This document shows positions 8,040 through 26,602 of a stretch of DNA of 64,000 nt, piece by piece (positions within the stretch are counted from its first letter, which is position 1; each line of letters starts with the position of its first letter). The stretch is taken from the NCBI GenBank assembly GCA_018241225.1, contig JAFEEG010000005.1, positions 40,024 through 104,023 on the forward strand. Direction: 5' to 3'. A program made the translations under genes and the position numbers. The notes under the pieces are model-generated. The model was not told where the DNA came from and ran no database searches. It saw only the letters and a list, made by a program, of their open reading frames with translations. The stretch is from Pseudomonadota bacterium. GTDB taxonomy: Bacteria > Pseudomonadota > Gammaproteobacteria > Burkholderiales > Burkholderiaceae_C.

Positions 8040-8103
8040 GCACAGGCGATAAACGTTCAATATCCGGTTTTCACGAGCAGCAGCATTGAAAGGCCAACAG
8101 AAG

Positions 8104-9087: not shown

Positions 9088-9091
9088 CGGC

Positions 9092-9817: not shown

Positions 9818-9827
9818 ATGCCTGGCG

Positions 9828-11009
9828 TCAGGCGGCGGCGCGCCGCAGCGCCACCATGGTGATGTCGTCGGCCGCCGCTTCGTGGCGGCTGTAGGCGTCC
9901 AGCGCGGCTTCCACATGCTGCAGCAGCAGCTCGCCCGACGGGGCCGCCGCGGCACCCACGGCCTGCATCAGGCGCGTCTCGCCGAAGGCGCCCTGCGCGC
10001 CGGCGGCCTCGACCACGCCGTCGGTGTAGCCCAGCAGCACTTCACCGGGTGCCAGCTGTGCGCGCCCTACGTCGAAGCGCTGGTCCGCCAGCAGGCCCAG
10101 CGCCGGCCCGGTGGCGCCCAGGCGCTGGCGAACCTCGCCGCCGGCACCGGCGACAAGCGGTGCGTCGTGGCCCGCGTTGATGTAGCTCAGCGTGCCGGTT
10201 TGCGGGTCGAACAGGCCCATGAAGGCCGTCGCGAACATGCTCGCGCGGCCATGCACGCGGGCGATGTAGTCGTTGGTGAGTGCGGCAGTGGCCAGCAGGA
10301 TGTCGGCATGGGCAGTGCCTGGCGCAAAGGCCTGGCTCGCGGTGGCGCGGATCAGGCTGCGGAACAGCGCCATGTACAGCGCCGCGCCCACGCCCTTGTC
10401 GCACACGTCGGCCACCACCACGAACACGCCGCCGTTGCCGTGCACCGGGAACAGGTCGTAGAAGTCGCCCGCCACCTGCCGCGCGGGCCGAAAGCGCACC
10501 GCAATGTCCCAGCCCGGCAGCAGCGGCAGCGAGTCGGGCAGAAAGCCGGCCTGGATGGCGCGGCCGATTTCCAGCTCGCGCTCCATGCTCTGCAGGTGGC
10601 GCATCTCGCCGTCGTGCACGCGCTTCTTCAAGAGGCAGGCATCGACGCGCGCCTGCAGGATGAGCGGGTTGAAGGGCTTGGTCAGGTAGTCGTCCGCCCC
10701 CAGGGCCAGGCACTTGACCACGCTGTCGGTCTCGCCCAGGGCCGAGATCATGATGACCGGGATATGGCGCAGCGCGGGGTCGTCCTTTAGGCGCGCCAGC
10801 ACCTCGTAGCCGTCGATGCCCGGCATCATCACGTCCAGCAGGATCACGTCGAAGTTCTGCGCCTTCAGGCGCTCGAGCGCGCGGTGGCCGTCTTCCACCG
10901 CTTCCACGGCATGGCCGCTGCGCTGCAGGCGCCGGCTGAGGACGTCGCGGTTCATGGGGTTGTCGTCCACCACCAGCGCCCGCGCGGGCATGGCCACCGA
11001 TGCGTTCAT
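9828..11009 (-). CDS. Response regulator fused to PP2C (RsbU/SpoIIE-type) phosphatase
   Basis: The 393-residue protein has an N-terminal receiver (about residues 8-125) with VVDDNPMNRD, phosphoacceptor Asp in VILLDVMMPGIDGYE and YLTKPFNP. A linker helix (LLKKRVHDGEMRHLQSMERELEIGRAIQAGFLPD) leads to a PP2C-like serine phosphatase with metal sites GDFYD and VADVCDKGVGAALYMA, GYTDGVVEA, and terminal DDITMVALRR. Such proteins dephosphorylate STAS anti-anti-sigma factors when their receiver is phosphorylated, here probably the STAS protein at 11979-12323. It is the last gene of the seven-gene operon. The ATG at 11009 overlaps the stop of a 29-codon frame. Confidence 0.93.
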   Translation of the reverse strand: MNASVAMPARALVVDDNPMNRDVLSRRLQRSGHAVEAVEDGHRALERLKAQNFDVILLDVMMPGIDGYEVLARLKDDPALRHIPVIMISALGETDSVVKCLALGADDYLTKPFNPLILQARVDACLLKKRVHDGEMRHLQSMERELEIGRAIQAGFLPDSLPLLPGWDIAVRFRPARQVAGDFYDLFPVHGNGGVFVVVADVCDKGVGAALYMALFRSLIRATASQAFAPGTAHADILLATAALTNDYIARVHGRASMFATAFMGLFDPQTGTLSYINAGHDAPLVAGAGGEVRQRLGATGPALGLLADQRFDVGRAQLAPGEVLLGYTDGVVEAAGAQGAFGETRLMQAVGAAAAPSGELLLQHVEAALDAYSRHEAAADDITMVALRRAAA

Positions 11010-11095
11010 GCCGCCCGCTCCGTGGCCGGCATCATGTGCTGGCCGTGCATGCCCGCTTGCAGCAGGCGGCGCAGGCCCGGATGCCCCTGCATCAT
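11006..11095 (-). CDS. Possible 29-residue leader/linking ORF
   Basis: A short frame begins at an ATG (11095-11093) that overlaps the patatin stop codon as ATGA. It ends in a TGA (11008-11006) that overlaps the ATG of the receiver-phosphatase gene, again as ATGA. The predicted peptide starts MMQGHPGLRRLLQAG and ends MMPATERAA. It has no recognisable domain. The double overlap would allow ribosomes to pass from patatin to phosphatase without release. It may be a translational-coupling peptide rather than a functional protein. Confidence 0.4.
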   Translation of the reverse strand: MMQGHPGLRRLLQAGMHGQHMMPATERAA

Positions 11096-11982
11096 GCGCG
11101 CAGGGCCTGCGGCTCGCCGGCCTGGCTGAGCAGCTCGCGCAGGTACGGCATCTGTTCTTGCGCGGCGCGTTCACCGCATTCGATGATGTAGGGGATCTTG
11201 TCCGTGTCAAACAGGCGCACCCGCTCCTCGAAGCGAGGAATCATCGGAATGATCTCGCTGTGGTGCGCCAGGCTGTGGAAGGCGTAGTTCGACTTGAACA
11301 GGTTGTTGGACATGATCGCGCTGAGCTGGAAGGCAAAGCGCCCGGCCGAGTGGATGGTGGGCTGGTAGGGGCTCTCGAAGCCGGCCGCCACGATCACGTT
11401 GGCACCCTGGCGGATGGCCACGCCGATGGGCAGCGGGTCGGAAAGAAAGCCGTCGATCAGCAGCTCCTCGCCGATGCGCCAGGGCGAGAAGGCAAAGGGC
11501 AGGGCGATGCTGGCGCGCACCGCATCGACCACGCTGCCTTGCGACAGCACCACCTGCTCGCCGTTGGCGAAATCGGTGGCCGCGATGTGCAGCGGGATCT
11601 TCATGTCCTCGATGCGCGCATCGCCGAAGGCCTGGTTCAGGCGCGCCATGATGAGCTTGTCGCTGCGCAGGCCGAAGGTGGTCTTGTCGAAGCCCAGCAG
11701 CCTGGGCGCCAGCACCTGCAGCATGGCGCGCGTGTTGCGCTGCGCGGCCGCTTCCTTGGTCCACAGCCTGCGCGTCATCTCGGCCGCCACTTCGGCGCGG
11801 TGGCCAGCCGCCATGGTGGCGGCGTAGATCGCGCCGGCGCTGCAGCCCACCACCATGTCCAGCTCGATGCCCTCGCGCAGCAGCACGCTCTGAATGCCGA
11901 TGGCGGCCGCGCACTTCACGCTGCCCGAGCCGATGACCAGCGCGATGCGCTTGCGCTGCGCCGACGACGCTTGAACCGTCAT
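11092..11982 (-). CDS. Patatin-like phospholipase
   Basis: The 296-residue protein has the patatin Ser-Asp dyad. The oxyanion-hole segment is IALVIGSGSVKCAAAIGIQSVLLREGIELDMV. The nucleophile elbow G-C-S-A-G lies in VVGCSAGAIYAATMAAGHR, and the catalytic Asp is in LLIDGFLSDPLPIGVA (D-G). The expected activity is lipid acyl hydrolysis, cytoplasmic or at the inner membrane face since no signal peptide is seen. The oxyanion loop reads GSGSVKC rather than the usual GGGxxG. It is sandwiched between STAS and PP2C genes with four-base overlaps, which suggests its activity is an output of the partner switch. It resembles RssA-type patatins that sit in regulatory operons. Confidence 0.9.
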   Translation of the reverse strand: MTVQASSAQRKRIALVIGSGSVKCAAAIGIQSVLLREGIELDMVVGCSAGAIYAATMAAGHRAEVAAEMTRRLWTKEAAAQRNTRAMLQVLAPRLLGFDKTTFGLRSDKLIMARLNQAFGDARIEDMKIPLHIAATDFANGEQVVLSQGSVVDAVRASIALPFAFSPWRIGEELLIDGFLSDPLPIGVAIRQGANVIVAAGFESPYQPTIHSAGRFAFQLSAIMSNNLFKSNYAFHSLAHHSEIIPMIPRFEERVRLFDTDKIPYIIECGERAAQEQMPYLRELLSQAGEPQALRA

Positions 11983-12323
11983 TGCAGTTCGGCGTGGAAG
12001 CTCGCCACCGCCTCGTTCACGTCGCCGTAGAGCTTGAGGATGCTGGTAAAGCCCGACAGCTCCAGCACGCGCAGCACCGGTGGCTGAACGCCCGCCAGGC
12101 GGAAGTCGCCGCCCTGGCGGCGCGCGTCCTTGAGCGTGGCCAGCAGCGCACGCAGGCCGGCACTGCTGGTGTAGGCGACCTGGCTGAAGTCGGCCACCAG
12201 GCGGATGTGCTGTTCGCGCACCGTGCTGCCCAGGGTCTGCATCAGCTGTTCGGCCGTGAGGCTGTCGACGCTGCCGCTGATGGCGGCCACTGTCACTTCG
12301 CCGTGGGTGATCTCGATCTGCAT
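11979..12323 (-). CDS. STAS-domain anti-anti-sigma factor (RsbV/SpoIIAA-like)
   Basis: The 114-residue protein is a single STAS domain: MQIEITHGEVTVAAISGSVDSLTAEQLMQTL, then LVADFSQVAYTSSAGLRALLATLKDARRQGG. The phosphorylatable Ser is in the T-S-S-A-G-L-R motif. In the known partner switch the RsbW-like kinase phosphorylates this Ser and a PP2C enzyme removes the phosphate; both partners are encoded in this operon. The frame is open upstream, but the start at 12323 begins the STAS fold and leaves 31 bases after the kinase gene. Its end overlaps the patatin start by four bases. Confidence 0.93.
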   Translation of the reverse strand: MQIEITHGEVTVAAISGSVDSLTAEQLMQTLGSTVREQHIRLVADFSQVAYTSSAGLRALLATLKDARRQGGDFRLAGVQPPVLRVLELSGFTSILKLYGDVNEAVASFHAELQ

Positions 12324-12354
12324 GGCAAGGCTCTCCAGAAGATGAGGATGTGGA

Positions 12355-12777
12355 TCAGGAATGAATCTGCTTGACCAGCGTGAGGTGGTTGCCGCGCTCG
12401 GGCGCAGGCCGGTAGCGCACCTCGTCGACCATCTGGCGCACCAGGTGCCAGCCCAGGCCACCGATGGGGCGCTCGTCCCAGCCGGTGTCCAGCGAAGGGG
12501 GCAGCACGGTGGCGGGGTCGAACACGCGCGCGCGATCGATGATGTCGATGGTCAACAGCGGCGCCCGCGCCCAGTCCAGCGCCAGGGTGATGGGGCCGGG
12601 CGACTCGTTCGCGTAGCCGTGGGTCATCACGTTGACGCTGACCTCTTCCACCGCCAGGCGAACGGCATGGCGTTCGTCCTCGTTGGCGCCGGCGTAAAGA
12701 CATGCCTGCTCGGCCGCGTCGAGCAGCGCGGGCAGGTTCTCCAGCGTGGCCGTGCGGGTGATGCTCAGCTGCTTCAT
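12355..12777 (-). CDS. RsbW/SpoIIAB-like anti-sigma serine kinase (HATPase_c)
   Basis: The 140-residue protein is a stand-alone GHKL ATPase. Its N-box is HAVRLAVEEVSVNVMTHGYAN (E-x3-N). Its G1-like segment IIDRARVFDPATVLPP corresponds to the D-x-G-x-P-F-D-P motif of RsbW, and its G2 segment is RPIGGLGWHLVRQMVDEVRYRPAPERGNHLTLVK. It should phosphorylate the STAS protein encoded next and bind a partner when STAS is phosphorylated. No sigma factor gene lies in the operon, so that partner is unknown. The start ATG overlaps the stop of the receiver gene by four bases. Confidence 0.93.
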   Translation of the reverse strand: MKQLSITRTATLENLPALLDAAEQACLYAGANEDERHAVRLAVEEVSVNVMTHGYANESPGPITLALDWARAPLLTIDIIDRARVFDPATVLPPSLDTGWDERPIGGLGWHLVRQMVDEVRYRPAPERGNHLTLVKQIHS

Positions 12778-13173
12778 GATGGCGTTGGCCCATTCGCGGG
12801 GGACACCGGCGCGGCCAGCGCCTGCGCGATCTTGGCCAGCAGGCGCTGCAGGTCGACCGGCTTGGTGTCGAAGTCGTCGCAGCCCGCGTCCAGGGCCCGC
12901 TCGCGATCGCCGGACATGGCGTGCGCCGTCAGTGCGATTACCGGCACGGCGCGCGTGGCGGCATCGGCCTTGAGCCGGCGCGTGGCTTCCCAGCCGTCCA
13001 TTAGCGGCAGGCTCATGTCCATCAGCACCACGTCGGGCGCATCGCTTTTAACGCAGGCAATGGCGCGCGCGCCGTCGCCTGCGGTGCGGATCTCGAAGCC
13101 GTGCCGCATGAGCCGGCGCGTGAGCATGTCGCGGTTCATCTCGTTGTCTTCGACCAGCAGGATGCGTGTGGGC

Positions 13174-13181
<8 letters not shown>
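12774..13181 (-). CDS. Single-domain response regulator
   Basis: The 135-residue protein is a receiver with no output domain. It has acidic pocket ILLVEDNEMNRD, phosphoacceptor Asp in VVLMDMSLPLMDGWEATRRLK, Thr in IALTAHAM and Lys in FDTKPVDLQ. It is CheY-like and most similar to receivers that act in phosphorelays with hybrid kinases. It overlaps the upstream kinase gene by eight bases and the RsbW-like gene by four. It probably receives phosphate from one or both MASE2 kinases and may pass the signal on or act as a phosphate sink. Confidence 0.94.
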
Positions 13182-14579
<1,398 letters not shown>

Positions 14580-14583
<4 letters not shown>

Positions 14584-16007
14584 GCCTGGACCACTTCGCC
14601 GGCGGCGGCAAACTGCTCTTGCAGCACGCCATGCGCCGGCAGCACCACGGTAAAGCGCGAGCCCTTGCCGGCTTCGCTGGCCACCAGGATGTCTCCGCCC
14701 ATCAGGCCGCACAAACGCCTGCTGATGGCCAGCCCCAGGCCCGTGCCGCCGTAGCGCCGCGTGGTGGTGGGATCGGCCTGGGTGAAGGGCGTGAACAGGC
14801 GCTCCAGCTGGGCCGGGGTCATGCCGATGCCCGAGTCGGTCACGTCGAACTCCAGCCAGCGGCTGCCGTCGCGCAGCTCGTCGCGAACGTCCAGGCTCAG
14901 CACGCCGTCCTGCGTGAACTTGCCCGCATTCGACAGCAGGTTCAGCAGCACCTGCCGCAGCTTCATGCCGTCGGCGCGTATGGCGCCGATGCCCGGGTCG
15001 ATCTGCACTTCCAGCACGTTGGCATTGCGCGCGATGAGCGGCTGCGCGGTGCCCAGCACATCGTCGATGAGGGTGGGAAGGTGCACGTCCTCCAGCTGCA
15101 GTTCCAGCTTGCCGGCCTCGATCTTCGAGAGGTCCAGCACGTTGTTGATCAGCTCCAGCAGGTGGTGCCCGGCCCCGCGGATCTTGTGCAGGTCGGGCTG
15201 CAACTGCGGCTGGCCCAGCTCGGCCACCTCTTCGTCGAGCAGCTCGCTGTAGCCGATGATGGCGTTCAGCGGCGTGCGCAACTCGTGGCTCATGTTGGCC
15301 AGGAAGGTGCTCTTGGCGCGGCTGGCGGCCTCGGCCTGCTCGCGTGCGTGCTCGGCGGCGGCGCGCTCGGCCTCGGCCTGCGCACGGGCCTGCCCGATCT
15401 GCCGGTTCTGCTCGGCAATGCGCTGGTTCTGCTCCTGCAGGCCCAGCTTGTGATGCACCGCACGGCGCGTCTGCACGTTGGAGTGCAGGCCGAAGATGGT
15501 GGTGAACAGCGCCATCGAGAACACCGCCAGCAGCGCGGTGGCCAGGCTGGCCTCGGGCTGGAAGTGAAAGCCCCCCAGCGCGCCGCCAAGCAGGCCGCCC
15601 GCCACGAAGGCCAGCAGGCCCCTGGCTGCAAAGCGCACACCGCCCACGCTCAGGTTGGCCGCGTTCAGCGCGGTGAACACCGCGGCCGCCGGCCACAGGC
15701 TGAAGCCGCACAGGCCCACCATGACCGAGGAGAAAAAGGCATCGCCCAGCAGGTTGTTCAGCTCGGCCTGCTTGGAGTTGCTGGCCCAGCTGGCGTGCAG
15801 GTAGGCCACCTGCGGCCAGGCCACCCCATGAAAGACCGCCAGCGCCCAGAACCAGCCGTTGGCGTTGCGGTTGTCCAGCATGGTGGCCCACATCACCAGC
15901 ACGAGCAGGCACACCGGCATCCGCACCCGATAGTCGAGATCGACTGTCGGGTGCTTCTTGCGTTCGCCGGTCCTCGCACCCTCGCCGGTTTGGCCCTTGG
16001 GTTCCAT
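14580..16007 (-). CDS. MASE2-type membrane sensor histidine kinase (first of a pair)
   Basis: The 475-residue protein is a paralogue of the next gene with the same order. Its MASE2-like membrane region (about residues 22-170) starts [24 protein letters not shown] long Gln/Glu/Ala-rich coiled coil (about 185-235) leads to HisKA ([21 protein letters not shown]) and HATPase_c ([50 protein letters not shown]). It is the first gene of the seven-gene signalling operon and lies 153 bases from the divergent AraC gene. Two tandem kinases of the same class suggest two related inputs or a heterodimer (inference). Confidence 0.93.
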
Positions 16008-16160
16008 CCGAAGGTAATACTTGTGTTTTGTTGCGACCGGAGATTAAGCTTTGTGCCCGGGAGGAAAACTGTCCGAAGACGCCAATCCACTTGCCGATCG
16101 CGCCAAGCGATTGACGGCTGCGCAGGGCGCCGGATCTCCTGCTGTGGAAAGGTGAACGCC

Positions 16161-17174
16161 GTGGCGTTCCGCGCCCCCTTGCCGCTGAACATGCTGGACG
16201 CCATGCGCAAGTCGGGCATCGACCTGGCCGCCCTCGCAACGCGCGCCGGCCTGGCGGCCGAGCAGTTGCGCCAGCCGCTCACGCCGGAGCAATCGGACCG
16301 CTTCTTCGTCGTCGCCTACGAACAGGTGGGCAACCCCGCGGTGGGCCTGGCGCTGGGCATGCGCATGGAGCCCGAGCTGTTCAGCGTGGTGGGCTTTGCG
16401 GCCATGAGCAGCCCCACATTCGGCGTGGCCCTGAGCCGCATCGCGCGCTACAACGCGCTGGTGTCGGCGTGCGAGCTGGAGCTGGCGGTGTCCGGGTCGC
16501 AGACCGAGGTGCGCATGCGCTTCGATGGGCCTGCGCGTAGCTACGACCGCTGCCGGCTCGACATCCAGACCGGCTCGCTGCTGTGCTTCGGCCGGCGATT
16601 TACCGAGCGGCAGATCGTGCCGGTGCGCGTCACCCTGCGCGGCGAGCCGCCGGGCTACGCGCCGCTGTATGCGCAGACCTTCGGCTGCCAGGTGCTGTTC
16701 GGCCAAGCGCACGACGCCATCGTGTTCGGCAACGACGACCTGGCGCTGCCGCTGGTCAGTGCCAACCCCAGCATGGCGTCGATATTCATCGAGGCCGCCG
16801 AGCGCGGCCTGGCCGACCATGCGCGCGGCGGGCCCGGCATTGCGCAAGGCGTGCGCGAGGCATTGCTCAAGCTGCTGGGGGGCGAGCTGCCCACCATCGC
16901 GCAAGTGGCCGGCGAGCTGTGCATCAGCGAGCGCACGTTGCAGCGCAGGCTGTCGCAAGAGGGCGTGAAGTTCAGCACCTTGCTCGACGAGGCGCGGCTG
17001 CAGCTGGCCAGCCGCTACCTCGATGCGGGCCGTGCCAGCCTCACGGAAATCGCCTACATGCTGGGCTTTGCCGACCCCAACTCCTTCTTCCGTTCCTTCA
17101 AGCGATGGACGGGCGTGACGCCGGATGTCTACCGGCACGGCAAGCGCGGTGGGGCGGCGGCAACGCCGCCCTGA
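16161..17174 (+). CDS. AraC-family transcriptional regulator (OruR/PF12625 type)
   Basis: The 337-residue protein has the N-terminal 'arabinose-binding' domain of the OruR/ArgR-like AraC group (RAPLPLNMLDAMRKSGIDLAALATRAGLAAEQL...FFVVAYEQVGNPAVGLALGMRM). It ends with two helix-turn-helix motifs, TIAQVAGELCISERTLQRRLSQEG and LTEIAYMLGFADPNSFFRSFKRWTGVTP. A GTG at 16161, eight bases after ggaaagg, is chosen; GTG 16152 and ATG 16191 are alternatives. It is divergent from the kinase operon and convergent with the DyP-patatin gene, so its target may be the kinase operon or lie elsewhere. Confidence 0.9.
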   Translation: MAFRAPLPLNMLDAMRKSGIDLAALATRAGLAAEQLRQPLTPEQSDRFFVVAYEQVGNPAVGLALGMRMEPELFSVVGFAAMSSPTFGVALSRIARYNALVSACELELAVSGSQTEVRMRFDGPARSYDRCRLDIQTGSLLCFGRRFTERQIVPVRVTLRGEPPGYAPLYAQTFGCQVLFGQAHDAIVFGNDDLALPLVSANPSMASIFIEAAERGLADHARGGPGIAQGVREALLKLLGGELPTIAQVAGELCISERTLQRRLSQEGVKFSTLLDEARLQLASRYLDAGRASLTEIAYMLGFADPNSFFRSFKRWTGVTPDVYRHGKRGGAAATPP

Positions 17175-17185
17175 ACGCGCGCGCC

Positions 17186-20100
17186 TCAGGTGGGATGTCG
17201 GATGCGCATGCTGGACTGCGGCATGGCGCGGTAGGGCTCGAAATCCCCGCTGTCGGCAAACACGCCCTCCAATGCGCACAGGGCTTCCAGCTGCGCCTTC
17301 AGCTCCCGGGCCTGTTCGGGCCTGAGCGCCGTTTCCGATGGCCAGATCCTGGTGCGGCGCGGCGGCTTGCGCAGCGGCGGCTCGACCAGCGACTGCGCGA
17401 TCTGCTGCGTCAGCGGCATGGCGTGGCGGTCCAGCTCGCTCGCGCCGGAGATGCCCTCGATGCGCTCGCGCAGCGAAAGCAGCATGCAGTTCAAGCGCAC
17501 CCAGCGGTGTTCCTCCCAGCCCTTGCTGTCGGGCTGCGCGAACTTGCGGATGAACTCGGCCGCCGCCGTCTTGCCATAGCACTCGCCCAGCCGACGGATC
17601 TTCGGGGCCTTCATGCGGATGTTGACGCCGCCCTCGTCCTTCTCGAGGTAGACGCGCACCACCCGGTCGCGCACGCCGGGCATCCGCATCATGGTGCTGT
17701 CGTTCCAGCGCCAGGTGGTCTTCCAGAGGCTGAACAGGAACTTGAAGAACTTGCCAAGGGTCGACTTCTCCTCGCTGGGCCCCAGGTCCCAGCATTCGCC
17801 GCGTCCGCTGGTGTGGTATTCGGGCAGCGAGACAGGCTCGGGCTGCCCGATGCGCCGCGCCTGCAGCGAAATGCCGAAGGTCGGCCAGCGGGGAACGAAG
17901 CTGTCGAACAGGTGGATCGGGAAGTTCGAGCACAGGCCGCCATCCGACATCCAGCACTGCGCCATGCTCCGGCGCTCGTGATCGATGGCGTACAGCGGCA
18001 CGGCCGAGATCAGCAGCGGGAAGCTCATGGCCAGCCGCACCGCGACCACGATGGGCAGCTTGCCCACCGGCAGCTCCAGGTAGTCGCTGTCGATCGAGTC
18101 GGCGGGCGGGTCCGCGGCGCTCCTGGCCTTGTAGGTCTTGGCGTAGGCCTGCATGTGCCGCACCACGCGCTTGGGGAAGTAGTACTCGAGCTCTTCGGCG
18201 CGAAAGAACAGGCGCCCCATGTCTTCGGCTTCGTCCAGGGGAAATCGGTAGGGCCTGCTGTGGGCGAGGTTGCTGGAATAGACCTCCAGGTTGATCGAGC
18301 GCGCGGCGGCGGGCGTGAAGGGCGTGAAGTCCAGCGCCTGCGCGGCCGAGCCGGGCGCGTTCCACAGGTCCTCGAAGGTCAGCGGATCGTCCTTGGGGTG
18401 TCGCCCGGCAACGTGCTGGATGGAGGCGTGCAGGAAGCCGGCGAGGTCGATCGTGGCGGGGTTCTCCTCTGCGCGCCAGCCCCGGCACAGGCCGAAGCCG
18501 TTGGGCACAACGCCATGCGCAACGTCCAGGAGGATGCAGGTCAGCAGGGCGCCGAAGACCCCGAGCACCAGCGCCAGCACCGCCGCCGTTCCCCATGAGA
18601 TGAAGCCCAGGAAGCACGAGGCCACGTTCAGGGCCAGGAGGCAGTTGGCCAGGTTCAGGCCCGGCCCCGCCAGGGTCAGCGCGAGCAGGACCAGGGTGGT
18701 CCAGCCCACGGGCTTGCGGTACTGGCGCAGCGCGCAGACAAAGCCGTGCCACGCCAGCGACGCCAGGTTCTCCCGGTCCAGCGAGGCCAGGAAGATCTTG
18801 AACAGCCGGCGCGTCTTCTTCTGCGGAATGAAAAGTCGCTCGAGCAGCGTGCGGCCGTCCACCTCCTCGGCCAGTTGTTTCGGCAGTTGCTCCAGCTGCG
18901 TGAATCCTTCGCCCGATCCCTTGCGGCGCCAGTATTCGGCCGCGGCGCTCAGGGCCGCGGCAAAGGCGCCGATCGAGCTGCCGCCGATGCTGCGGAACCG
19001 GTAGTTCCTGCCCAGCTCCACGGCGGCCGATGCGTAGATGACGCCGCTGGTGATGCCGCCTTCCATCACCACGTCGCAGAAGCGGTCGGTGGGCACATCC
19101 ATGAAGTCGGGCTTGGGGGCTTCTTCCTTTTCCTGCCCTGCATCGGCTTGCTGTTGCTTCGGCTCGGCGTGCGCCGATTGCGCCGGCGGTGCGGCCTGTG
19201 CCGCCAGCGCGGCGACCGGCGCCGCAGGCGGCGCAACGGGGGCTGCCTGTGCCGCTGGCTGCGATGCCTCGACGTCGATGTCGTCGCCGCGCCATGCAGT
19301 CATGGCCTTCAATGCCTGGAGGCTCGGGAACAGCGCATACACCGTGCCCCGCGTGCGCACGAACGGGGAGAAGTCGGTCAGCGCGATCGCAGCCCCGCTG
19401 CGCTGCGGAATGAGGAAGTCGGCGGCCGGGTCGTCGTGGTTGCCCACCAGCGGGTCCTTGGATCGACCGGGGTTGGGCGGACCCATGGGCTTCTTCTCGA
19501 GCCACTCGGACACCAGGCGCTCGAAATGGTCCTCGATGCGGGCGCAGAAGAAGACTCCGAGCAGCCCTGCCTCGTCGTGCTCGCCCTTCGGGTAGGGCAC
19601 GCCGCGCCTGAACAGGGTGTGGATCTTCAGGTCCAGCGGCACGATCGGGTCGTCGTGCGGATTGGCGCGCCGGATGTGGGCGCCGAAGGGGCAGCCCAGT
19701 CCATTGCGGTCGGCTTCGAAGTCGTGGATGACCAGGTCCTCGCCCTTGCCGGGTGGCTTGGGCTCCACCCACTCGCCAGGCTTGACCAGCGCGCCGTTGG
19801 GCCAGCGGCCGCACATCTTTGCCTTGAGGTACTTGGCCGTCACCCGTGGGTAGGCCCCGCGCAACCGGGCGGCTTGCGCCTGCAGGTAGTCTTCGAGCTG
19901 GGTCTCGAACTGCTCGATCTTGCGCAGGATGCCGAAGCTGCCGTGGCGCAGGAAATCGGCAATGTCGGGCGGCGTGGTCATCGTGTCGGTCCACAGGTCC
20001 ACGTCGTCGATGTTCTTGAAGCCCAGCAGCAGTTCGCCGGCCGGCGCGCTTCCGCCTTCGCCGATGTGCGGGCGGGTGATGCTGTCGCGAAAGCCGAACG

Positions 20101-20662
20101 GAACGACGCGAACCTGCTTTTCCGTGCCGATGTCCTTGAAGATGTGCTGGCCCGACAGGCCCGGCGCGGCATCCCAGCCGGTCAGGCCCCAGGACGAGTT
20201 CAGGGCTCGAAGCCCGTCAACTTCGGCGTCGATGTCGAGCGCGGTGGGGCCGTGTATGGAGATCCACACATGCGGCTCCTGCGGAAAGAAGGCGCCTTCC
20301 CATTGGTCGGGTGCATTCCTGCCGCCGTCGCCCAGGTAGCGCCCGGCACGGCGGATGGCGCCATCGCCGAAGGCCGGCGAGCGCTCCTTGAGCAGCGCCA
20401 GGATGTGCTTGGGCGCGCCCAGGGTGTACAAGCCTTCGCAACTGAAGCCGATGTTGATCGGGCAGCGCCCGTTCCTGTCGAGCAGTTCCTTGTCGCCGAA
20501 GGCGAGCAGGCGGCGCGCGACCAGTTCGCCGATGAACTGGCGCGCCATGCCTGCGTCCTTGACGCGCAGCAGAAGGTGCCGCACGCACGCGTCCTTGAAG
20601 CCCGTCAGGACCAGGCTCTGCACTTCGAGCTGGAACGCGTTGGGGTAGGTCCTGGCGTTCAT
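17186..20662 (-). CDS. DyP-type heme peroxidase fused to patatin-like phospholipase
   Basis: The 1158-residue fusion starts at an ATG overlapping the P450 stop (ATGA). Residues 1-430 are DyP-like. They include PINIGFSCEGLYTLG and FGFRDSITRP, where the catalytic Asp193 is kept but the GxxDG glycine is Ser. They also include CPFGAHIRRANP, with His329 the likely heme ligand, and LFRRGVPY. A Pro/Ala/Gln linker spans about 465-518. The patatin half has the oxyanion segment VVMEGGITSGVIYASAAVEL, G-S-S-I-G with nucleophile Ser563, and the D-G-G motif at Asp907. Two or three membrane segments (about 652-715) are inserted between these catalytic parts. No signal peptide is seen. I infer a membrane-anchored lipase that feeds or guards a peroxidase; it is the last gene of a three-gene operon. 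I know of no named family with this architecture. Confidence 0.88.
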   Translation of the reverse strand: MNARTYPNAFQLEVQSLVLTGFKDACVRHLLLRVKDAGMARQFIGELVARRLLAFGDKELLDRNGRCPINIGFSCEGLYTLGAPKHILALLKERSPAFGDGAIRRAGRYLGDGGRNAPDQWEGAFFPQEPHVWISIHGPTALDIDAEVDGLRALNSSWGLTGWDAAPGLSGQHIFKDIGTEKQVRVVPFGFRDSITRPHIGEGGSAPAGELLLGFKNIDDVDLWTDTMTTPPDIADFLRHGSFGILRKIEQFETQLEDYLQAQAARLRGAYPRVTAKYLKAKMCGRWPNGALVKPGEWVEPKPPGKGEDLVIHDFEADRNGLGCPFGAHIRRANPHDDPIVPLDLKIHTLFRRGVPYPKGEHDEAGLLGVFFCARIEDHFERLVSEWLEKKPMGPPNPGRSKDPLVGNHDDPAADFLIPQRSGAAIALTDFSPFVRTRGTVYALFPSLQALKAMTAWRGDDIDVEASQPAAQAAPVAPPAAPVAALAAQAAPPAQSAHAEPKQQQADAGQEKEEAPKPDFMDVPTDRFCDVVMEGGITSGVIYASAAVELGRNYRFRSIGGSSIGAFAAALSAAAEYWRRKGSGEGFTQLEQLPKQLAEEVDGRTLLERLFIPQKKTRRLFKIFLASLDRENLASLAWHGFVCALRQYRKPVGWTTLVLLALTLAGPGLNLANCLLALNVASCFLGFISWGTAAVLALVLGVFGALLTCILLDVAHGVVPNGFGLCRGWRAEENPATIDLAGFLHASIQHVAGRHPKDDPLTFEDLWNAPGSAAQALDFTPFTPAAARSINLEVYSSNLAHSRPYRFPLDEAEDMGRLFFRAEELEYYFPKRVVRHMQAYAKTYKARSAADPPADSIDSDYLELPVGKLPIVVAVRLAMSFPLLISAVPLYAIDHERRSMAQCWMSDGGLCSNFPIHLFDSFVPRWPTFGISLQARRIGQPEPVSLPEYHTSGRGECWDLGPSEEKSTLGKFFKFLFSLWKTTWRWNDSTMMRMPGVRDRVVRVYLEKDEGGVNIRMKAPKIRRLGECYGKTAAAEFIRKFAQPDSKGWEEHRWVRLNCMLLSLRERIEGISGASELDRHAMPLTQQIAQSLVEPPLRKPPRRTRIWPSETALRPEQARELKAQLEALCALEGVFADSGDFEPYRAMPQSSMRIRHPT

Positions 20663-22416
20663 CTCGGCCCCAGCCCCAGGTTCTGGATGTCCGCCACGCA
20701 CGCCGTCGGGTAGGCACTGTAGAAGTAGTCGACCAGTGCCGTGCGGTTGTGGTCCTTGATGGTCTGCACGAACTCCTTGGGATACAGCTGGATGGGGGTG
20801 GGAGGCGCATCGACCAGGTACTTGAACTGCTCGTCGAACAGCGGCACCCGCAGGGCGAAGTGCTCGACGTAGGCATCGAAGTCGCCGTCATACACGGTGA
20901 AGAAGGCCAGGTGCGTGCAGTTCTCCACCAGGAGGAACCACGCGAAGTGCACGTTGTGCGCCTCTTCCAGCGCGCGCTCGACAACGGCCGCGCCGGCCTT
21001 GGTGAGCAGCATCAGCTTGCGGGCGTTCTCGGCCACCGGCTCCTTGATCTTCAGCACGAACAGCAGGGGCTGCTGGTTCAGCCGCCTGTCGCGCTGGTAT
21101 TGCAGCGGAAACTCGTCGCAGATGGCGCCCCAGCTCTTGGCCAGCGGCATCGGCAGGTTGTTGGCCGGATCGATGCGCTGGCTCAGGCCAGGCAGCAGCA
21201 GCACCGAGCGCACGGTCTCCTCGATGATCGGCCAGGCCAGGTGCCGGCCCACGCAACTGTGCACGTAGCTTCCATCGTTCAGCGCGCCGCCGAACATCAG
21301 CTCCGGGTCGATGGGAAGGTCCGCCCCCATGGCGAGCACCAGCTCGTCGCCGGCGCGCACCTGCACCCGGTCTTTCCCGCTGCCCAGCAGCATGTCGTGC
21401 TTGGCGGTGCGCGTCAGGAAGGGCGCCGGCGGCCGGTAGCGCATGGCGTGCTCGATCATGCCCCTGAGCGCCTCGCCGTTGTTCGCCCTGGCGTACAGGA
21501 CGGCCATGTCGATCAGCCGCACCCCGTGCGAGCGTTCGCAGAAGAAGTAGTCGATGGTGTTGGCGATGGCCGACGTGACGTTGCCCACCGTGCCGACCAT
21601 CAGGCCACTGATCACGATGCGAAGCATCTCGTCGTCCTGCGGGTAGTCCGCGGCAAGGCGCAGGCTGGCGTTCCGGTGCGTCAGCAGGTTCTCGTCCCAC
21701 CACTCCTTGCGCAAGGTGTCGTGGGCCGCGCCCAGGATGTCGGCGTACAGGTCGTCGCGAATCTTGACCGCGTTCTTCGAGTCGCTTGGCGCCAGGCCAT
21801 CGTCGGGCAGGAAGTGGCGCCCGATGATCTGGAAGGTCAGGCGCGTATAGCCCGCGCGCATGCCCAGCTGCAGGTACACGTGCGCCTTGGCGGTCAGGCC
21901 GAACAGCAGCGCGATGTAGCGCAGGGCGGCCTGCTCCGCGACGTCGGCCACCAGGTCGAAGTGATACGTCTTGGTCGGCAGGACCATGGCCCGCCTGACC
22001 GCTTCGCGCGCACAGTTCAAACGTTCCGCCTCGTCGAACTTCAGGGCGCAGAGGGCGTGGTTCCTCTGCACCCTGTGCGGGCACAGCTCGCCCTGGCTCA
22101 GCTCGTCCTGGCCCAGCATGAAGCTGCCGCCGCTTTCCAGCTGCGCATAGGGCTTGACGCTGCCTTGCCTGAGCACCTTCGAGACGTCCTGTGCCGAGGT
22201 GACCAGCCAGGCCCGCACGTCGGGCCATGCCTTGTCGGCGTCCTTGCCGCCGCGGCGCATCACGCTCGTGAACGGCAGTGGAGGGAATCCACTTTGCTTC
22301 AGCTGCGCGTACAGCGTGCTGCGGCCGGCGTCGTCGCGCAGGGCCTCGAACAGAAGGCGGTTGCGCAGCAGCGCGTTCGATTCGCCTTGGATGGCGTTGA
22401 GCGTTGGCGTGGGCAT
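20659..22416 (-). CDS. Cytochrome P450-like protein with DyP-associated C-terminal domain
   Basis: The 585-residue protein carries a P450 fold over about residues 1-430. The heme-thiolate motif is Y-V-H-S-C-V-G-R-H-L-A with Cys388. The I-helix reads VISGLMVGTVGNVTSAIAN (about 269-285), so the acid-alcohol pair of monooxygenases is missing. The K-helix ExxR reads H323-A-M-R326 with a Glu one position early. These changes resemble P450s that rearrange or use peroxides rather than activate oxygen (inference). Residues about 445-585 (FAWFLLVENCTHLAFFTVYDGDFDAYVEHFALRV) resemble the domain often found before DyP-like peroxidases. No ferredoxin or reductase gene is nearby. It overlaps the DyP-patatin gene by four bases and follows the cyclase gene by 43. 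Confidence 0.82.
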   Translation of the reverse strand: MPTPTLNAIQGESNALLRNRLLFEALRDDAGRSTLYAQLKQSGFPPLPFTSVMRRGGKDADKAWPDVRAWLVTSAQDVSKVLRQGSVKPYAQLESGGSFMLGQDELSQGELCPHRVQRNHALCALKFDEAERLNCAREAVRRAMVLPTKTYHFDLVADVAEQAALRYIALLFGLTAKAHVYLQLGMRAGYTRLTFQIIGRHFLPDDGLAPSDSKNAVKIRDDLYADILGAAHDTLRKEWWDENLLTHRNASLRLAADYPQDDEMLRIVISGLMVGTVGNVTSAIANTIDYFFCERSHGVRLIDMAVLYARANNGEALRGMIEHAMRYRPPAPFLTRTAKHDMLLGSGKDRVQVRAGDELVLAMGADLPIDPELMFGGALNDGSYVHSCVGRHLAWPIIEETVRSVLLLPGLSQRIDPANNLPMPLAKSWGAICDEFPLQYQRDRRLNQQPLLFVLKIKEPVAENARKLMLLTKAGAAVVERALEEAHNVHFAWFLLVENCTHLAFFTVYDGDFDAYVEHFALRVPLFDEQFKYLVDAPPTPIQLYPKEFVQTIKDHNRTALVDYFYSAYPTACVADIQNLGLGPR

Positions 22417-22459
22417 CTTTCCCTCCGGTGCAGGCGTGACACGCGCTTCTCCGATCGCC

Positions 22460-25400
22460 TCAGTGCATGCGCCGCAGGCTCTGCAGCCTGGCTTGCGCGT
22501 TGATCAGGTCGCGTGTTCCCTTGCCCCCCTGGATCGATCGACAGGCGCACTCGATCAGCTCGATGGCCTCGTCCTTGTTCTGCCCTTGCGATTCCCAGAG
22601 CTCGGCCAGGCTGGTGGCCGCCCTGAGATAGAGGGACGCCAGCTCCCGCGAGCGGGCGCATTGCAGGGCCTGCTGGTACCACGCCTGGGCTTCGGCGGCG
22701 CGGTCCAGCCCGCCGGCAACGGCGCTTTGAAGCGTGAGCTGGCCGATGAGCCGCCGGATCTCGGCCTCGTAGTAGCGTTCGCCGGTGCGCGTCACGATGG
22801 CCAGCGCCTGCTCCAGCAAGACCAGTCCGTCCTCCGGGCGCCGGCACAGGGCCTGTCCTTCGGCGCGCATGGTCAGGTAGAAGGGCGAGGTCACCACGGC
22901 GCCCGACTCGGCCCACAGCTCGTAGCCCTGGCGCATCTCCTCCACGCCGGATTCGGTTTCGCCCAACTCGGCCAGCGCGCGGCCGCGCATGACGCGCGCA
23001 TGCGCCAGCCAGACGGTGAAGCCGCCGTCCTCGCAGATCTCGACTGCCCGGTTGGCCGAGGCCAGGGCCGGCTCGTTCTCGCCCCGAAAGTGCTGCACCG
23101 CCGCGCGGAAGCCGAAGGCCTCGCCCATGCTGAACTTGTGCTGGATGTGCTCCGCGTGCGCGGTCACGGTCATGACCCTGGAAAGCGCCTCGTCCGGAAA
23201 TCCCAGCTCCCACAGCGACCACGCCGAGTAGCACAGGCACATCACGCCCGGGTCCTGCACGGCCTGCGGGTGATGCTCCAGCTGCATGTACTCGGCGCGG
23301 CACGCATCCATCTCACGCACCGCCTGGGCCATCTCGCCCTGGTGCATGCGGATGTTGGCCAGGGCCCACTGGGTCTGGATCTTCTGGATGCTGCTGTTCG
23401 CGCTGCCGGCGCGCTGCGCCGCGTCCAGCGCATGGACGCGCGCCTTGTCGAAGTCGGCACGCATGAAGTGATAGCTCTCCAGGCCCAGCAGCACGCGCAT
23501 CACGGCGCCTTCGTCGCCTAGCAGGCGCGCCAGCTCCATCGCCCGGACATAGGCGCGCTCGACGCGGGTCGCGCCATAGCCCCGCGTGGCGATGAGGCGC
23601 GCGGCCAGCAGCAGCTGCAGCCGCAGCTCGGCGCGCGAGCGCTCTTCGCTGGTCGGTGACCTGGCGAGCACCGCGAGCGTGCTTGCGATGTGGGCAATGG
23701 CCTCCGCGTGCGCCGAGCGCGACGCGGCGTGCCGCACCGCCGCATCCCAGTGGCGCAGCGCGTCGGCGTACATGCCCGCTTCGGTGTAGTGGGACGCGAG
23801 CAGCTCAGGATGCCTTTCGCAGACATCGGGAAAGCTCTCGCTGATGACGGTCGCGATGACCTGGTGCAGGCAGCGGCGATCGCGCTCGAGCAGCGAGTGA
23901 TAGGCCGCGTCGCGCATCAAGGCGTGCCTGAACCCGAAGCGAAGACCCTGGCCGTCCTTGGGAACGATCATGCCGGCGCGCACCAGCTCGGCCAGCGGCC
24001 GGTCCAGCTCGCGCATGTCGATGGGCGACTCGGGGTGCTTCATCACGGCCTGGAGCAACTGCAGCGGAAACTCGCGCCCGATCGTGCCGCCGATCTGCGC
24101 GACCAGCCGCGCGGCGCCCAGCCGGTCCAGCCGCGTGGTCAGCAGGTCCAGCACGGTGGTCGGCACCGGCAGCGCGCTGGCATCGACCTCGTCCTTGTCG
24201 GCACCCAGCTCCACCATCATTCGCGCGGATTCCTCGATGAACAGCGGCACTCCGTCGGCGCGGGAGGCAATCGACTGGATCACTTCGGCTGGTAGCCGGC
24301 GGCCGCCGCAGGCGCTGACCACCATGGCCCGCGACTGGTCCAGCGACAGGCCGCGCAACTCGGCCTCGTGGACTGCCAGCTTGGGTTGCCAGCGCAGTTC
24401 GGCGTCCGACCGCACGGTCACGACGATCAGCAGCGGCAACTCGCGCGTTGCCATGGCCAGCCGGTCGAGGAACTCGGCGGTGGAAGGGTCGAGCCAGTGC
24501 ACGTCCTCGATGATCCAGCAGCCGGGTGCCCGCCTTGCGCGCTGCTGGGCCAGGGCCACGAGCAGGTCCACCGTCAGTTGCCGCCGCCGCTCGGCGCTTT
24601 GCTCCAGCACCGGATGGCGCAGCGGAACGGGCAGCGCCAGCAGGTCGGCCAGCAGTGCGGTACCGGCTTCGTCGATCTCGTTGGAGCGCGAGGCCATGGC
24701 GTTGAGCCGCTGCAGGATGGCCTCCTGCTTTTCCTCGGTGCCCAGTTGCAGTTCGTTGCGAAGCGATTCGATCAGCGGATGGAACGCGCTGTTGGCGTGC
24801 TCCTGCGAGCAGCGGCTTTCGAGTACCTCATGGCCTGCATCGAGCAGCATCTGCTTGAACTCGCGCAGCAGGCGCGACTTGCCGATGCCCGCCTCGCCAA
24901 GAATGCGCACCAGGCGCTGCGATCCGGCCTGCACCGCTTGCCAGTGCTCCTGGAGTATCTGCAGCTCCTCGAGCCGGCCGATCAGTGGCGTCATGGCCGG
25001 TCCCTCGGTGCCGGAGGCAGCGGCCGATGCCGGGCCGAGCAGGCGGTAGCAGACCTGCTGCCTGTCGAATCCTTTCAGCGGCCCCAGTTGCTCCAGCGCC
25101 TGGAAGTCGAACCGGTCCTTCACGATCCGACGCGTCGACTCGCCCACCACCACCGTGCCGGGTGCCGCCACCGCCTGCAGGCGCGCCGCCAGGTGGATGG
25201 CCGAGCCGATGGGCTGGCCGTCCCGCACGACCACCTCGCCGGTGCTGACGCCGACCCGTATGCCCAGGCCCAGTGCCTGCACCGCGTCGACCAGCTGCAA
25301 GCCGGCCCGAAGCGCTTGCGCTGCGGCGTCCTCGCGCGCCACGGGCATGCCGAAGTAGCACATCGCGCCGTCGTCACCCTGGAAGTCGTCGGGCACGCCA

Positions 25401-26602
25401 CCGAAGGAGCGCAGGATGTCCGTGCAGCGCTGGTGATATTGCGTGAGCAGCTCGCTGTACTTCTCGGCGCCCAGCACGGCCAGCAGCCGGGTGGATTCCA
25501 CCAGGTCGATCGACATGATCGTGACCTGTCGCAGGTTGTCGTCCGCGGGCGTGCGCCTTTCCTTCAGCACGGCCGCCGCGTCGCCGTAGAGTTCGGGGCG
25601 CAGCGCCGACAGCGCGGCCACGCCGGCGTCCGAGATCAGCTTGCCGCGCGCCACTCGCGTTGCCTCGGCAAGCGATGCGCCGCGCAGCAGGGCGGCAAAG
25701 AACTCGAGCATGAAGGCCCGGCCATGGCCCTCGTCGGCCGGCTCGCAGCAAAGCACGTTCAGGCCCAGGTTGCATGCGCTGCGAGCCAGGCCCCGGTTGG
25801 CATCAAGCCCTGTCCGGTCGGGGCCGGCGTCGTTCTGCGAGATCAGCAGCAGCGGAGGCGAGGGCAGGGCGGCAATGCTGCCCAGGTCGAGCGGTTCGGC
25901 CTCGCGCCACCAGACGGCCACTGCGCTGCTTGGCGCGCGTCCGTTCACCGGCCCGATGTAGTGGATCACGTCGTTGCCGCCGATCAGGCGCAGCAGTTCG
26001 TCGCGTGGCAGGTTGCCCGCATGCACGGCGCTGACGGTCAGCCCCGCCATGCTGCGCAACCGTGCGCCCAGCCAGGAGGCAGACGGGCCGTCCAGGCCCG
26101 CACTGGCGCCGCCGCCGGTGATGGTCAGTATCCGCAGGGCGCCGTGCTGGGGGGCGCGGCGCCGACCGGGGCCGACGGCGTCTGCCGCCGCGACGATGCG
26201 CCGGCACAGGCGGAATTTCTCTCCGACGAAACGCTCGCCGTCCCAGGCAAGTTCCCACGGCACCCACAGCAGTGACGCATCGAGCTGGATCGTGAGCAGG
26301 CCGGGCCGGGCGTCGTGCAGGTAGCGCACGATGCCCGCAGGCAGCAGCTGGCGCAGGATCTGCCGGCCCACGTCGCGGAACTGGTCGTCTGCGAGCGGCG
26401 ACGCGTCGGCGACTTCGTGCTTGCGCCCGGCGGCCTCGCGCAGCTGGCGGCATTGGCGCTCCAGCTCGGCCATGGCCTCCCTGGACGTCTCGATGCCTTC
26501 CATGCGGGCCAGCACATTGAGGTCCGTCAGCGACGCTATCAAGCCGTTGCTGCTCGGCAGCACGGCCAGGTATAGCGACGCGGCTTCGGAACTCGCGGAC
26601 AT
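22460..26602 (-). CDS. CHAT-like / class III cyclase / AAA ATPase / TPR signalling protein
   Basis: The 1380-residue protein has four parts. Residues about 75-350 resemble a CHAT domain (LLWVPWELAWDGERF, NDVIHYIGP). The His is kept, but the expected catalytic Cys position reads L-L-L-I-S-Q-N-D-A-G, so it is probably not a protease. Residues about 365-530 are a class III cyclase with both metal Asps (IMSIDLVEST and FQGDDGAMCYFG) and IHLAARLQA. There the base-selecting Lys is Asp, and the transition-state Asn is His. Residues about 555-830 are a STAND-like ATPase with Walker A GEAGIGKS and Walker B CWIIEDVHWLD. TPR-like helices fill the rest. The ATG at 26602 follows ggaaaggg. It is the first gene of the operon and the likely sensor/regulator for the P450 and DyP-patatin. 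Confidence 0.88.
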   Translation of the reverse strand: MSASSEAASLYLAVLPSSNGLIASLTDLNVLARMEGIETSREAMAELERQCRQLREAAGRKHEVADASPLADDQFRDVGRQILRQLLPAGIVRYLHDARPGLLTIQLDASLLWVPWELAWDGERFVGEKFRLCRRIVAAADAVGPGRRRAPQHGALRILTITGGGASAGLDGPSASWLGARLRSMAGLTVSAVHAGNLPRDELLRLIGGNDVIHYIGPVNGRAPSSAVAVWWREAEPLDLGSIAALPSPPLLLISQNDAGPDRTGLDANRGLARSACNLGLNVLCCEPADEGHGRAFMLEFFAALLRGASLAEATRVARGKLISDAGVAALSALRPELYGDAAAVLKERRTPADDNLRQVTIMSIDLVESTRLLAVLGAEKYSELLTQYHQRCTDILRSFGGVPDDFQGDDGAMCYFGMPVAREDAAAQALRAGLQLVDAVQALGLGIRVGVSTGEVVVRDGQPIGSAIHLAARLQAVAAPGTVVVGESTRRIVKDRFDFQALEQLGPLKGFDRQQVCYRLLGPASAAASGTEGPAMTPLIGRLEELQILQEHWQAVQAGSQRLVRILGEAGIGKSRLLREFKQMLLDAGHEVLESRCSQEHANSAFHPLIESLRNELQLGTEEKQEAILQRLNAMASRSNEIDEAGTALLADLLALPVPLRHPVLEQSAERRRQLTVDLLVALAQQRARRAPGCWIIEDVHWLDPSTAEFLDRLAMATRELPLLIVVTVRSDAELRWQPKLAVHEAELRGLSLDQSRAMVVSACGGRRLPAEVIQSIASRADGVPLFIEESARMMVELGADKDEVDASALPVPTTVLDLLTTRLDRLGAARLVAQIGGTIGREFPLQLLQAVMKHPESPIDMRELDRPLAELVRAGMIVPKDGQGLRFGFRHALMRDAAYHSLLERDRRCLHQVIATVISESFPDVCERHPELLASHYTEAGMYADALRHWDAAVRHAASRSAHAEAIAHIASTLAVLARSPTSEERSRAELRLQLLLAARLIATRGYGATRVERAYVRAMELARLLGDEGAVMRVLLGLESYHFMRADFDKARVHALDAAQRAGSANSSIQKIQTQWALANIRMHQGEMAQAVREMDACRAEYMQLEHHPQAVQDPGVMCLCYSAWSLWELGFPDEALSRVMTVTAHAEHIQHKFSMGEAFGFRAAVQHFRGENEPALASANRAVEICEDGGFTVWLAHARVMRGRALAELGETESGVEEMRQGYELWAESGAVVTSPFYLTMRAEGQALCRRPEDGLVLLEQALAIVTRTGERYYEAEIRRLIGQLTLQSAVAGGLDRAAEAQAWYQQALQCARSRELASLYLRAATSLAELWESQGQNKDEAIELIECACRSIQGGKGTRDLINAQARLQSLRRMH

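Follow-up and report, generated by a model that had tools for sequence, protein, structure and literature searches.

Pseudomonas oxidises fatty acids with heme enzymes in its 10S-DOX/diol synthase pathway, possibly for signalling, and does so with enzymes other than a P450, DyP peroxidase, patatin or cyclase. Fungi fuse a heme dioxygenase (DOX) to a P450 (excerpts of PMC13049297, which also mention a prokaryotic 10S-DOX), and in these DOX-CYP proteins (PpoA, the linoleate diol synthases and DOX-AOS) a heme peroxidase-type domain is joined to a self-sufficient P450 with HxC in its Cys loop and an Asn, Thr or nonpolar residue facing the heme. Plants use lipoxygenase (LOX) with CYP74, and corals a catalase-related allene oxide synthase (AOS) fused to lipoxygenase, in each case an oxygenase with a P450 or catalase-fold hydroperoxide enzyme; AOSs belong to the P450s in plants and in fungi, whereas those of corals are relatives of catalase (excerpts of PMC5617202). 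Here we describe a locus in a 64,000-nt stretch of DNA (the window) from a Variovorax-like bacterium of the Burkholderiaceae_C (assembly GCA_018241225.1, contig JAFEEG010000005.1, positions 40,024 to 104,023), where three minus-strand genes encode a cyclase-STAND sensor or regulator, a divergent P450 with a C-terminal FLD domain, and a DyP peroxidase fused to a patatin phospholipase. The three genes are one rearranged copy of a widespread, apparently undescribed bacterial cassette. What appears new is the assembly rather than its parts; its function we infer.

The locus resembles the fungal DOX-CYP enzymes in pairing a heme peroxidase-type domain with a P450 of the motifs just described. It falls outside that family, since its peroxidase is a DyP and not a member of the peroxidase-cyclooxygenase superfamily; the cassette moreover adds the FLD domain, a STAND gene and sometimes a patatin, and in the window the P450 and DyP are on separate chains. 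Compared with the plant and coral systems, it has a DyP in place of lipoxygenase and a regulator of its own. No DyP-P450 or DyP-patatin system is described in the open-licence literature searched, which is weak evidence of absence, nor in the excerpted text of PMC13049297, PMC5617202, PMC11719350 and PMC8197335.

Recurrence of the cassette

Named genomes were scanned with six FLD-DyP-P450 fusions, giving 383 relatives, of which the best 80 were kept; these make up 77 loci, with genes called by our own open reading frame (ORF) caller. A DyP gene was called in 71 of the 77, and the tallies omit L073, L100, L102, L116, L131 and L132. Some loci are repeats (L063 of L034, L067 of L068 from one strain, L077 of L055, L130 of L059), and several end at contig ends, so that counts of absence are upper bounds. 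The domain hidden Markov models were trained on members of the same set, which makes their E-values optimistic.

A STAND gene lies within 10 kb of the DyP gene in 60 of the 71 loci and within 500 bp in 50. The figures are 56 and 46 for a cyclase, and 16 and 12 for a patatin; a catalase-like gene was found in one. By chance, STAND adjacency would be expected per locus at about 2.5% (10 kb) or 0.7% (500 bp) if a genome held six such genes, and at 8.3% or 2.3% if it held 20. The loci are related, and binomial linkage figures therefore overstate significance. P450 is fused to DyP in 69 of 71 loci and FLD in 65, partly by construction since the queries were such fusions.

The relatives span beta- and alphaproteobacteria and Myxococcota, in Variovorax, Roseateles/Pelomonas, Xenophilus, Ramlibacter, Pseudorhodoferax, Bradyrhizobium, Sphingopyxis, Hyphomonas, Polyangium and other genera. 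STAND adjacency at 0-354 bp is seen in Variovorax soli, Bradyrhizobium, Sphingopyxis, Hyphomonas, a deltaproteobacterial bin and Polyangium, and a patatin within 10 kb in V. soli, Bradyrhizobium, Xenophilus, Rubrivivax, Rivibacter, Polyangium and others. Within the genus, relatives of the P450-FLD protein (P0002) were found in 10 of 101 genomes.

Reading 30 neighbourhoods gave four cassette types. A patatin, an FLD-DyP-P450 chain and a cyclase-STAND gene occur in L034 (V. soli, as a single-chain fusion) and L059. Catalase-like, FLD and DyP genes facing an opposed cyclase-STAND gene occur in L038, L045, L046 and L047. Doubled FLD (FLDx2) with DyP and a catalase-like gene is the arrangement of L033, L040, L042, L053, L054 and L057, and also of L048. 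FLD-DyP-P450 with a STAND gene that has an OmpR-type helix-turn-helix (HTH) is found in L039, L049 and L050, the last with a separate cyclase gene in addition. Eight further neighbourhoods (L035, L036, L037, L043, L044, L051, L058, L061) have a patatin alone, and the remainder fit no type. The earlier note on this DNA had proposed a multi-gene system, and it does recur outside this strain: several classes, and Myxococcota as well, have its parts in fused or rearranged form. That the system is real is strongly supported.

L033 is in the same genome as the window (contig C6, 34000-53999, genes at 6895-10972) and is a second cassette, with FLDx2 (437 aa), DyP (500 aa) and catalase-like (419 aa) genes. 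A 629-aa gene lies upstream of it; the 623-aa gene likewise placed in L040 is a GMC oxidoreductase. In two loci of Actinomycetota (L138, L139) DyP and FLD are encoded by two neighbouring, unfused genes. L138 also has a weak STAND-like match upstream, and in L139 the DyP gene has a patatin-like neighbour. This arrangement is possibly an older form of the cassette.

The three genes of the window

The layout in the earlier note, three minus-strand genes separated by a 43-nt gap and then a 4-nt overlap, agrees with the ORF and frame check, and codon scores are good for all three (Table 1). The gap lies between the sensor and P450-FLD genes and the overlap between the P450-FLD and DyP-patatin genes. 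An in-frame ATG is also present upstream of the sensor gene at 26635, and protein P0001, which starts there, has 1391 aa.

Table 1. Features of the locus and its surroundings, in window positions
Feature	Position	Strand	Basis or remark
Sensor/regulator gene	22460..26602	-	1380 aa from ATG at 26602
CHAT-like domain, marginal	25625..26374	-	Pfam PF12770, 25.7 bits (cut-off 24)
Class III nucleotide cyclase domain	25043..25534	-	Pfam and alignment
AAA_16/STAND ATPase domain	24422..24988	-	Pfam
C-terminal TPR segment	22538..22708	-	Pfam
P450-FLD gene (P0002)	20659..22416	-	585 aa
Divergent P450 domain	21112..22416	-	Heme Cys388 in HSCVG; HAMR for ExxR; Gly278-Asn279 at acid-alcohol positions
FLD domain, ferredoxin-like (beta-alpha-beta-beta-alpha)	20665..21072	-	P450-FLD residues 449-584
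DyP-patatin fusion gene (P0003)	17186..20662	-	1158 aa from ATG at 20662
DyP peroxidase domain	19286..20662	-	Asp (GFRDS), His (AHIRR) and Arg (RRG) kept
Patatin phospholipase domain	17189..19111	-	GSSIG serine and DGG aspartate kept
Main transmembrane (TM)-like hydrophobic stretch inside patatin	18500..18694	-	Hydrophobicity
Second, shorter TM-like stretch inside patatin	17981-18067	-	
AraC-type regulator gene	16152-17174	+	Convergent
Second, ordinary patatin	11092-11982		In region 9828-16007
Further class III cyclase gene	61973-63904	-	Domain E 7.8e-21

P450-FLD gene. The earlier note read this gene as a P450 with changed core motifs. The fold and the changes are both borne out, and the C-terminal FLD domain had been overlooked. 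The window protein has no Pfam match and scores 0.09 or worse against single PDB sequences. A profile of its relatives gave 65 PDB matches at E<=1, the best 60 of which are all P450s (GymB1, NzeB and TamI are among those we take to be such), with a best E of 2.2e-4, the only one under 0.001. An AlphaFold2 (AF2) model has a mean pLDDT of 64.8, with block means of 71-92 over residues 261-410, an uneven stretch before residue 261 and a poor FLD part. Searched with Foldseek, the model matched 590 PDB entries at E<=0.001 (best 6.5e-8), and the best 50 of the 590 are P450s (CalO2 and MycCI are among the few we take to be such), at TM scores by target of about 0.5-0.65. The structure prediction that had been proposed as a check thus gives a P450 fold, and by alignment with relatives, the relatives' profile and this predicted fold, gene 2 is a P450.

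The P450 alignment has 73 regions, namely the window, L052 and 71 regions that come after a DyP. The heme Cys is aligned in all 73 and the HxCxG pattern present in 71. At the acid position no region has Asp or Glu, 62 have Pro and one has a gap; nine have Glu at the first ExxR position. Helix I of the window protein reads G-T-V-G-N-V, with its Asn presumably at the Thr position of P450cam numbering. An Asn faces the heme in plant AOS, PGIS, LDS and EAS, is dispensable in the LDS and EAS tested, and is a Thr or nonpolar residue in other enzymes (excerpts of PMC13049297, which reviews P450s acting on hydroperoxides and endoperoxides in fungi and mammals). With no acid in the family and both Gly-Asn and HAMR in the window, the protein departs from an ordinary O2-activating monooxygenase. 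No ferredoxin or reductase gene was found in the operon or among 10 flanking window genes; in 128 neighbours of the relatives, which have 145 Pfam families between them, neither is one of the 25 commonest. The motif suggests, short of proof, peroxide chemistry without O2 activation.

CYP152 fatty-acid peroxygenases have an Arg-Pro pair in helix I as their hallmark. Here Pro is at the acid position in 62 of 73 regions and Arg just before it in none, and CYP152 is not named among the best 60 of the 65 PDB matches. The Pfam P450 model detects two of 36 members of this family. At 24-26% identity, the P450s of the large fusion clade are the closest to that of the window.

The FLD domain is a recurrent marker of the cassette, adjoining or fused with these DyPs. 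It came out poorly in the first AF2 model, whose alignment was without FLD rows; modelled from an alignment with such rows it reached a pLDDT of 88.9. This second model has no PDB match at E<=0.001 and is weakly like ABM/dimeric alpha+beta barrel proteins (best TcmI, E 4.8e-3, probability 0.98). No result here points to an iron-sulphur ferredoxin.

DyP-patatin gene. The fusion of a peroxidase with a phospholipase, as the earlier note had it, is confirmed: the patatin half matches Pfam Patatin at 4e-12 and has the family motifs GGSSIG and SDGG, and solved DyP structures match the other half, an Ala/Pro/Gln-rich linker joining the two. Library models score the DyP half under their cut-offs (PF21105 DyP_N 7.2e-5; TIGR01413 7e-12, 45.3 of 100.5 bits). 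Its matches among solved structures include the 'Peroxidase, putative' 8re2 (3.5e-21) and the 'ancestral D-type dye decolorizing peroxidase' 7anv (9.2e-17), and it has the residues that define a DyP, with the last Gly of GXXDG a Ser in GFRDS. Among relatives the DyP Asp is kept in 80 of 88 rows by a strict pattern and in 84 by a looser one allowing Glu, His and Arg in 83 each; in the patatin, the Ser is kept in 22 of 23 rows, and so is the Asp.

Searches with P0003 covered 101, 399 and 101 genomes, in overlapping sets, at thresholds of 1e-3, 1e-15 and 1e-6. Among the matches listed, none had DyP and patatin in one chain; queries in the genus and order returned separate patatins and DyPs. A stand-alone patatin relative in another genome of the genus (L036, 9262-11188, plus strand; G007) is split over three frames, probably a broken gene or an assembly error.

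Sensor gene. The domain order CHAT, cyclase, STAND and TPR proposed in the earlier note stands for the last three, which Pfam finds at 5.5e-8 (Guanylate_cyc), 9.5e-18 (AAA_16) and 4.4e-7 (TPR_12); the CHAT part (9.3e-6) is marginal. The CHAT region has no CHAT match among solved structures in a PDB search, and was found in one of 101 genus genomes, namely its own. IHYIGP and LISQND stand at the places expected for the CHAT dyad when read by eye, and what we take to be the usual His/Cys pair is not visible. At 1e-10 the own genome has six matches to the sensor, including the sensor itself and one cyclase-only stretch; this is the number behind the lower chance rates given above. The cyclase-STAND-TPR architecture is common to TIGR03903 TOMM kinase/cyclase proteins and LuxR/MalT-type STAND regulators. 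The window sensor scores 472.1 bits with TIGR03903, under the family cut-off of 705.75, and its match begins at profile position 284; the N-terminal part of the profile is unmatched, and a CHAT-like N-terminus stands there instead.

The window cyclase keeps both metal Asp residues and the transition-state Arg, and has His for the transition-state Asn. Among relatives, all 57 rows that reach the position of the metal Asp keep it, and all 64 rows have the GD motif; 51 of the 64 keep Asn together with Arg. Nine of the 60 STAND loci have a CRP-family gene directly beside the cyclase-STAND gene and in the same orientation, at gaps of 83-154 nt in L066-L070, L106 and L109 and with a 4-nt overlap in L113 and L129, the cyclase of L129 having Asn-His. 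The CRP gene of L066 matches cNMP_binding at 1.8e-21 and HTH_Crp_2 at 1.7e-9. Plasmid pDB-1 of Sphingopyxis sp. DBS4 (L140) has the same gene order (Crp/Fnr regulator, AAA ATPase, DyP) next to a Tn3 transposase and mercury-resistance genes; this DyP gene matches query residues 473-1156 only, with 58% of the fusion query covered. A link from cyclase to CRP is well supported in a few relatives and doubtful in the Xenophilus group; for the window cassette we infer it. The Xenophilus cyclases (L066-L070) are without Asn and Arg although a CRP gene adjoins them.

Exchange of P450 and catalase-fold partners

Catalase-fold proteins stand in place of the P450 in sister DyP cassettes. The DyP tree was made from 53 of 88 rows, about half of the P450-fusion rows having been removed at random. 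On it, P450 (38 rows) and catalase (11 rows) partners interleave. The fewest P450/catalase changes number three, a count without a shuffled control, or two without the window and L048, and still two without L052 as well. The window DyP groups with L048 and with catalase- and P450-partnered cassettes of the genus (a 9-row set, 100/99). Since the window P450 is nearest to the large fusion clade and its DyP falls in another group, the cassette looks built from two branches.

The catalase-like proteins differ at positions that we assign by familiar catalase motifs. Those of L038, L045, L046 and L047 keep a His and an R-x-x-x-Y motif; those of L033, L040, L042, L053, L054 and L057 have Asn at the distal His position. 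The L048 protein has R-x-T-H as in coral cAOS (residues as listed in excerpts of PMC5617202), and the aligned Tyr is missing. By analogy with the two kinds of AOS, the exchange of P450 and catalase folds within one bacterial cassette is the strongest single hint of oxylipin-like chemistry.

A candidate pathway of acyl-lipid oxidation

We read the three genes, with confidence a little short of even, as a rearranged copy of a conserved cassette for regulated oxidation of acyl lipids to an oxylipin-like product. The reading arises because patatin, DyP and P450 or catalase match the release, oxidation and rearrangement steps of eukaryotic synthesis, a parallel that the earlier note had drawn for the window. 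The kept DyP and patatin residues, the acid-less P450s and the P450/catalase exchange favour it, as a prediction from sequence. In such a cassette the STAND-TPR protein would sense a stimulus and the cyclase domain would make a cyclic nucleotide, which in some relatives a neighbouring CRP-type regulator may read, inducing or tuning the enzymes; other relatives would use an HTH in place of the cyclase, or an inactive-looking cyclase as a regulatory domain. The membrane-type patatin, where present, would release or present fatty acyl chains, and the DyP would oxidise them, most simply to or via hydroperoxides. The P450, without its O2-activation acid, could then rearrange or cleave the hydroperoxide with no need of a redox partner, a step that the catalase-fold protein would take in sister cassettes, while FLD might dock the two heme enzymes or handle a hydrophobic intermediate. 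The product would be an oxylipin-like molecule, either a signal or a stress chemical.

Several observations weigh against this reading. The exact three-gene form, whose conserved co-occurrence the earlier note had sought, was found in the window's own genome and in no other genome searched. No patatin lies within 10 kb in 55 of the 71 loci, some of them cut by contig ends, so that these data do not establish the lipase as an obligatory part. In 13 of 64 rows the cyclase lacks one or both residues of the Asn/Arg pair, as does that of the window (His-Arg); V. soli and four Xenophilus-type rows have Gly-His, keeping neither residue, and only three of the nine CRP-linked cyclases (L106, L109, L113) have both. 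There is no CRP gene near the window cassette, the best CRP-profile match being 0.0032 at 5575-6291. The window DyP is on a very long branch (1.85), which makes its placing unsure. We know of no DyP shown to make fatty-acid hydroperoxides, and the words P450, lipase and fusion are absent from the excerpted text of a DyP review (PMC8197335), though DyPs are reported there to act as oxidases on beta-carotene and alkenes.

A wider claim, possible but on the less probable side, is that a complete oxylipin-type signalling cassette arose in bacteria independently of its eukaryotic counterparts. It would consist of a lipase, a DyP acting as fatty-acid oxygenase and, by lineage, a P450 or catalase-fold hydroperoxide isomerase. 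A STAND sensor whose output is a cyclase or an HTH would control these enzymes, joined in some lineages by a receptor for cyclic nucleoside monophosphates (cNMPs). If this is true, the P450/catalase exchange in bacteria repeats what plants and corals did separately, and bacteria have, in a compact and widespread cassette, a regulated chemistry of oxidised lipids that follows the logic of eicosanoids and jasmonates. The finding would then give a physiological context to a branch of the DyP peroxidases and reveal a P450 family that Pfam mostly misses. How peroxidase-P450 partnerships arose could also be tested in soil bacteria that are in culture, V. soli among them.

Alternative explanations

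The cassette might instead tailor a secondary metabolite or xenobiotic, with the patatin as an esterase, DyP and P450 oxidising an aromatic or polyketide/terpenoid substrate and the STAND-cyclase protein as a pathway-specific activator. We consider this unlikely, although the weak likeness of FLD to the ABM monooxygenase/cyclase folds of TcmI and ActVA-Orf6, the OmpR-type HTH-STAND gene that replaces the cyclase-STAND gene in L039, L049 and L050, and reports of DyPs acting on anthraquinones and some alkenes (excerpts of PMC8197335) would all suit it. The lipase has TM-like stretches, however, and no polyketide synthase, non-ribosomal peptide synthetase or terpene synthase appears among the 25 commonest Pfam families of the 128 neighbours. 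Those neighbours do include acyl-CoA dehydrogenase (three), enoyl-CoA hydratase (two) and a thiolase, as would fit detoxification of peroxides or lipid hydroperoxides, in which the heme enzymes clear damaged acyl chains cut out by the patatin. The joining of a peroxidase to catalase-fold partners and the GMC oxidoreductase upstream in the catalase-type operon of L040 fit as well. But dedicated STAND control is elaborate for housekeeping, and the catalase-like proteins of the six FLDx2-DyP cassettes, with Asn in place of the distal His, are unlike a working catalase, so that we hold detoxification to be quite improbable.

STAND sensors, PycC-type cyclases and patatins recall Avs, Pycsar and CBASS CapV, and the earlier note had raised abortive anti-phage defence. 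On such a reading the STAND sensor would detect infection and set off the patatin and a peroxidation of lipids, which would destroy the membrane. Five PycC models (best 5.8e-6) and, at 0.014, the Avs2 model match the window sensor, and the patchy spread within the genus and the Tn3-flanked plasmid copy are in keeping with defence. PADLOC models were run on 128 neighbours of 26 loci. Thirty families matched at 1e-10, and the 25 of these listed match one to five members each; the few strong matches are one DpdF-like helicase, one PsyrT and two RtcR-like proteins, and a window glycosyltransferase matches GT4-conflict under its cut-off (20.6 of 26 bits). The commonest are TIR/PycTIR models (five members), which most likely arise through CRP-type cNMP-binding domains, found by Pfam in six members. 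Against defence, the P450 and DyP-patatin genes have no PADLOC match, defence families do not cluster among these neighbours, the CRP neighbour has an HTH and so looks like a transcription factor rather than an effector, and as many as 20 loci, mostly of Roseateles/Pelomonas type, share neighbours with one another, which looks like stable chromosomal synteny. Patatin or nucleotide-cyclase modules are shared with CBASS CapV and Pycsar, yet the window genes have neither a CD-NTase model match nor a cNMP-binding effector, which sets them outside both systems, and they add heme enzymes. The anti-phage reading is thus not supported and seems distinctly improbable to us. Placement in defence islands, a check that the earlier note had proposed, found no support among these neighbours.

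Neighbouring genes in the window

The other genes flanking the locus encode a transporter, a phosphatase, two-component and glycosyltransferase proteins and the like. The AraC-type regulator gene converges on the DyP-patatin gene, their 3′ ends being 11 nt apart; the regulator is QhpR/GliR-like, scoring under the cut-offs of those models. The region with the second patatin also has two MASE2 histidine kinases, a response regulator and a SpoIIE phosphatase with a receiver domain, and the further class III cyclase gene lies near the far end of the window.

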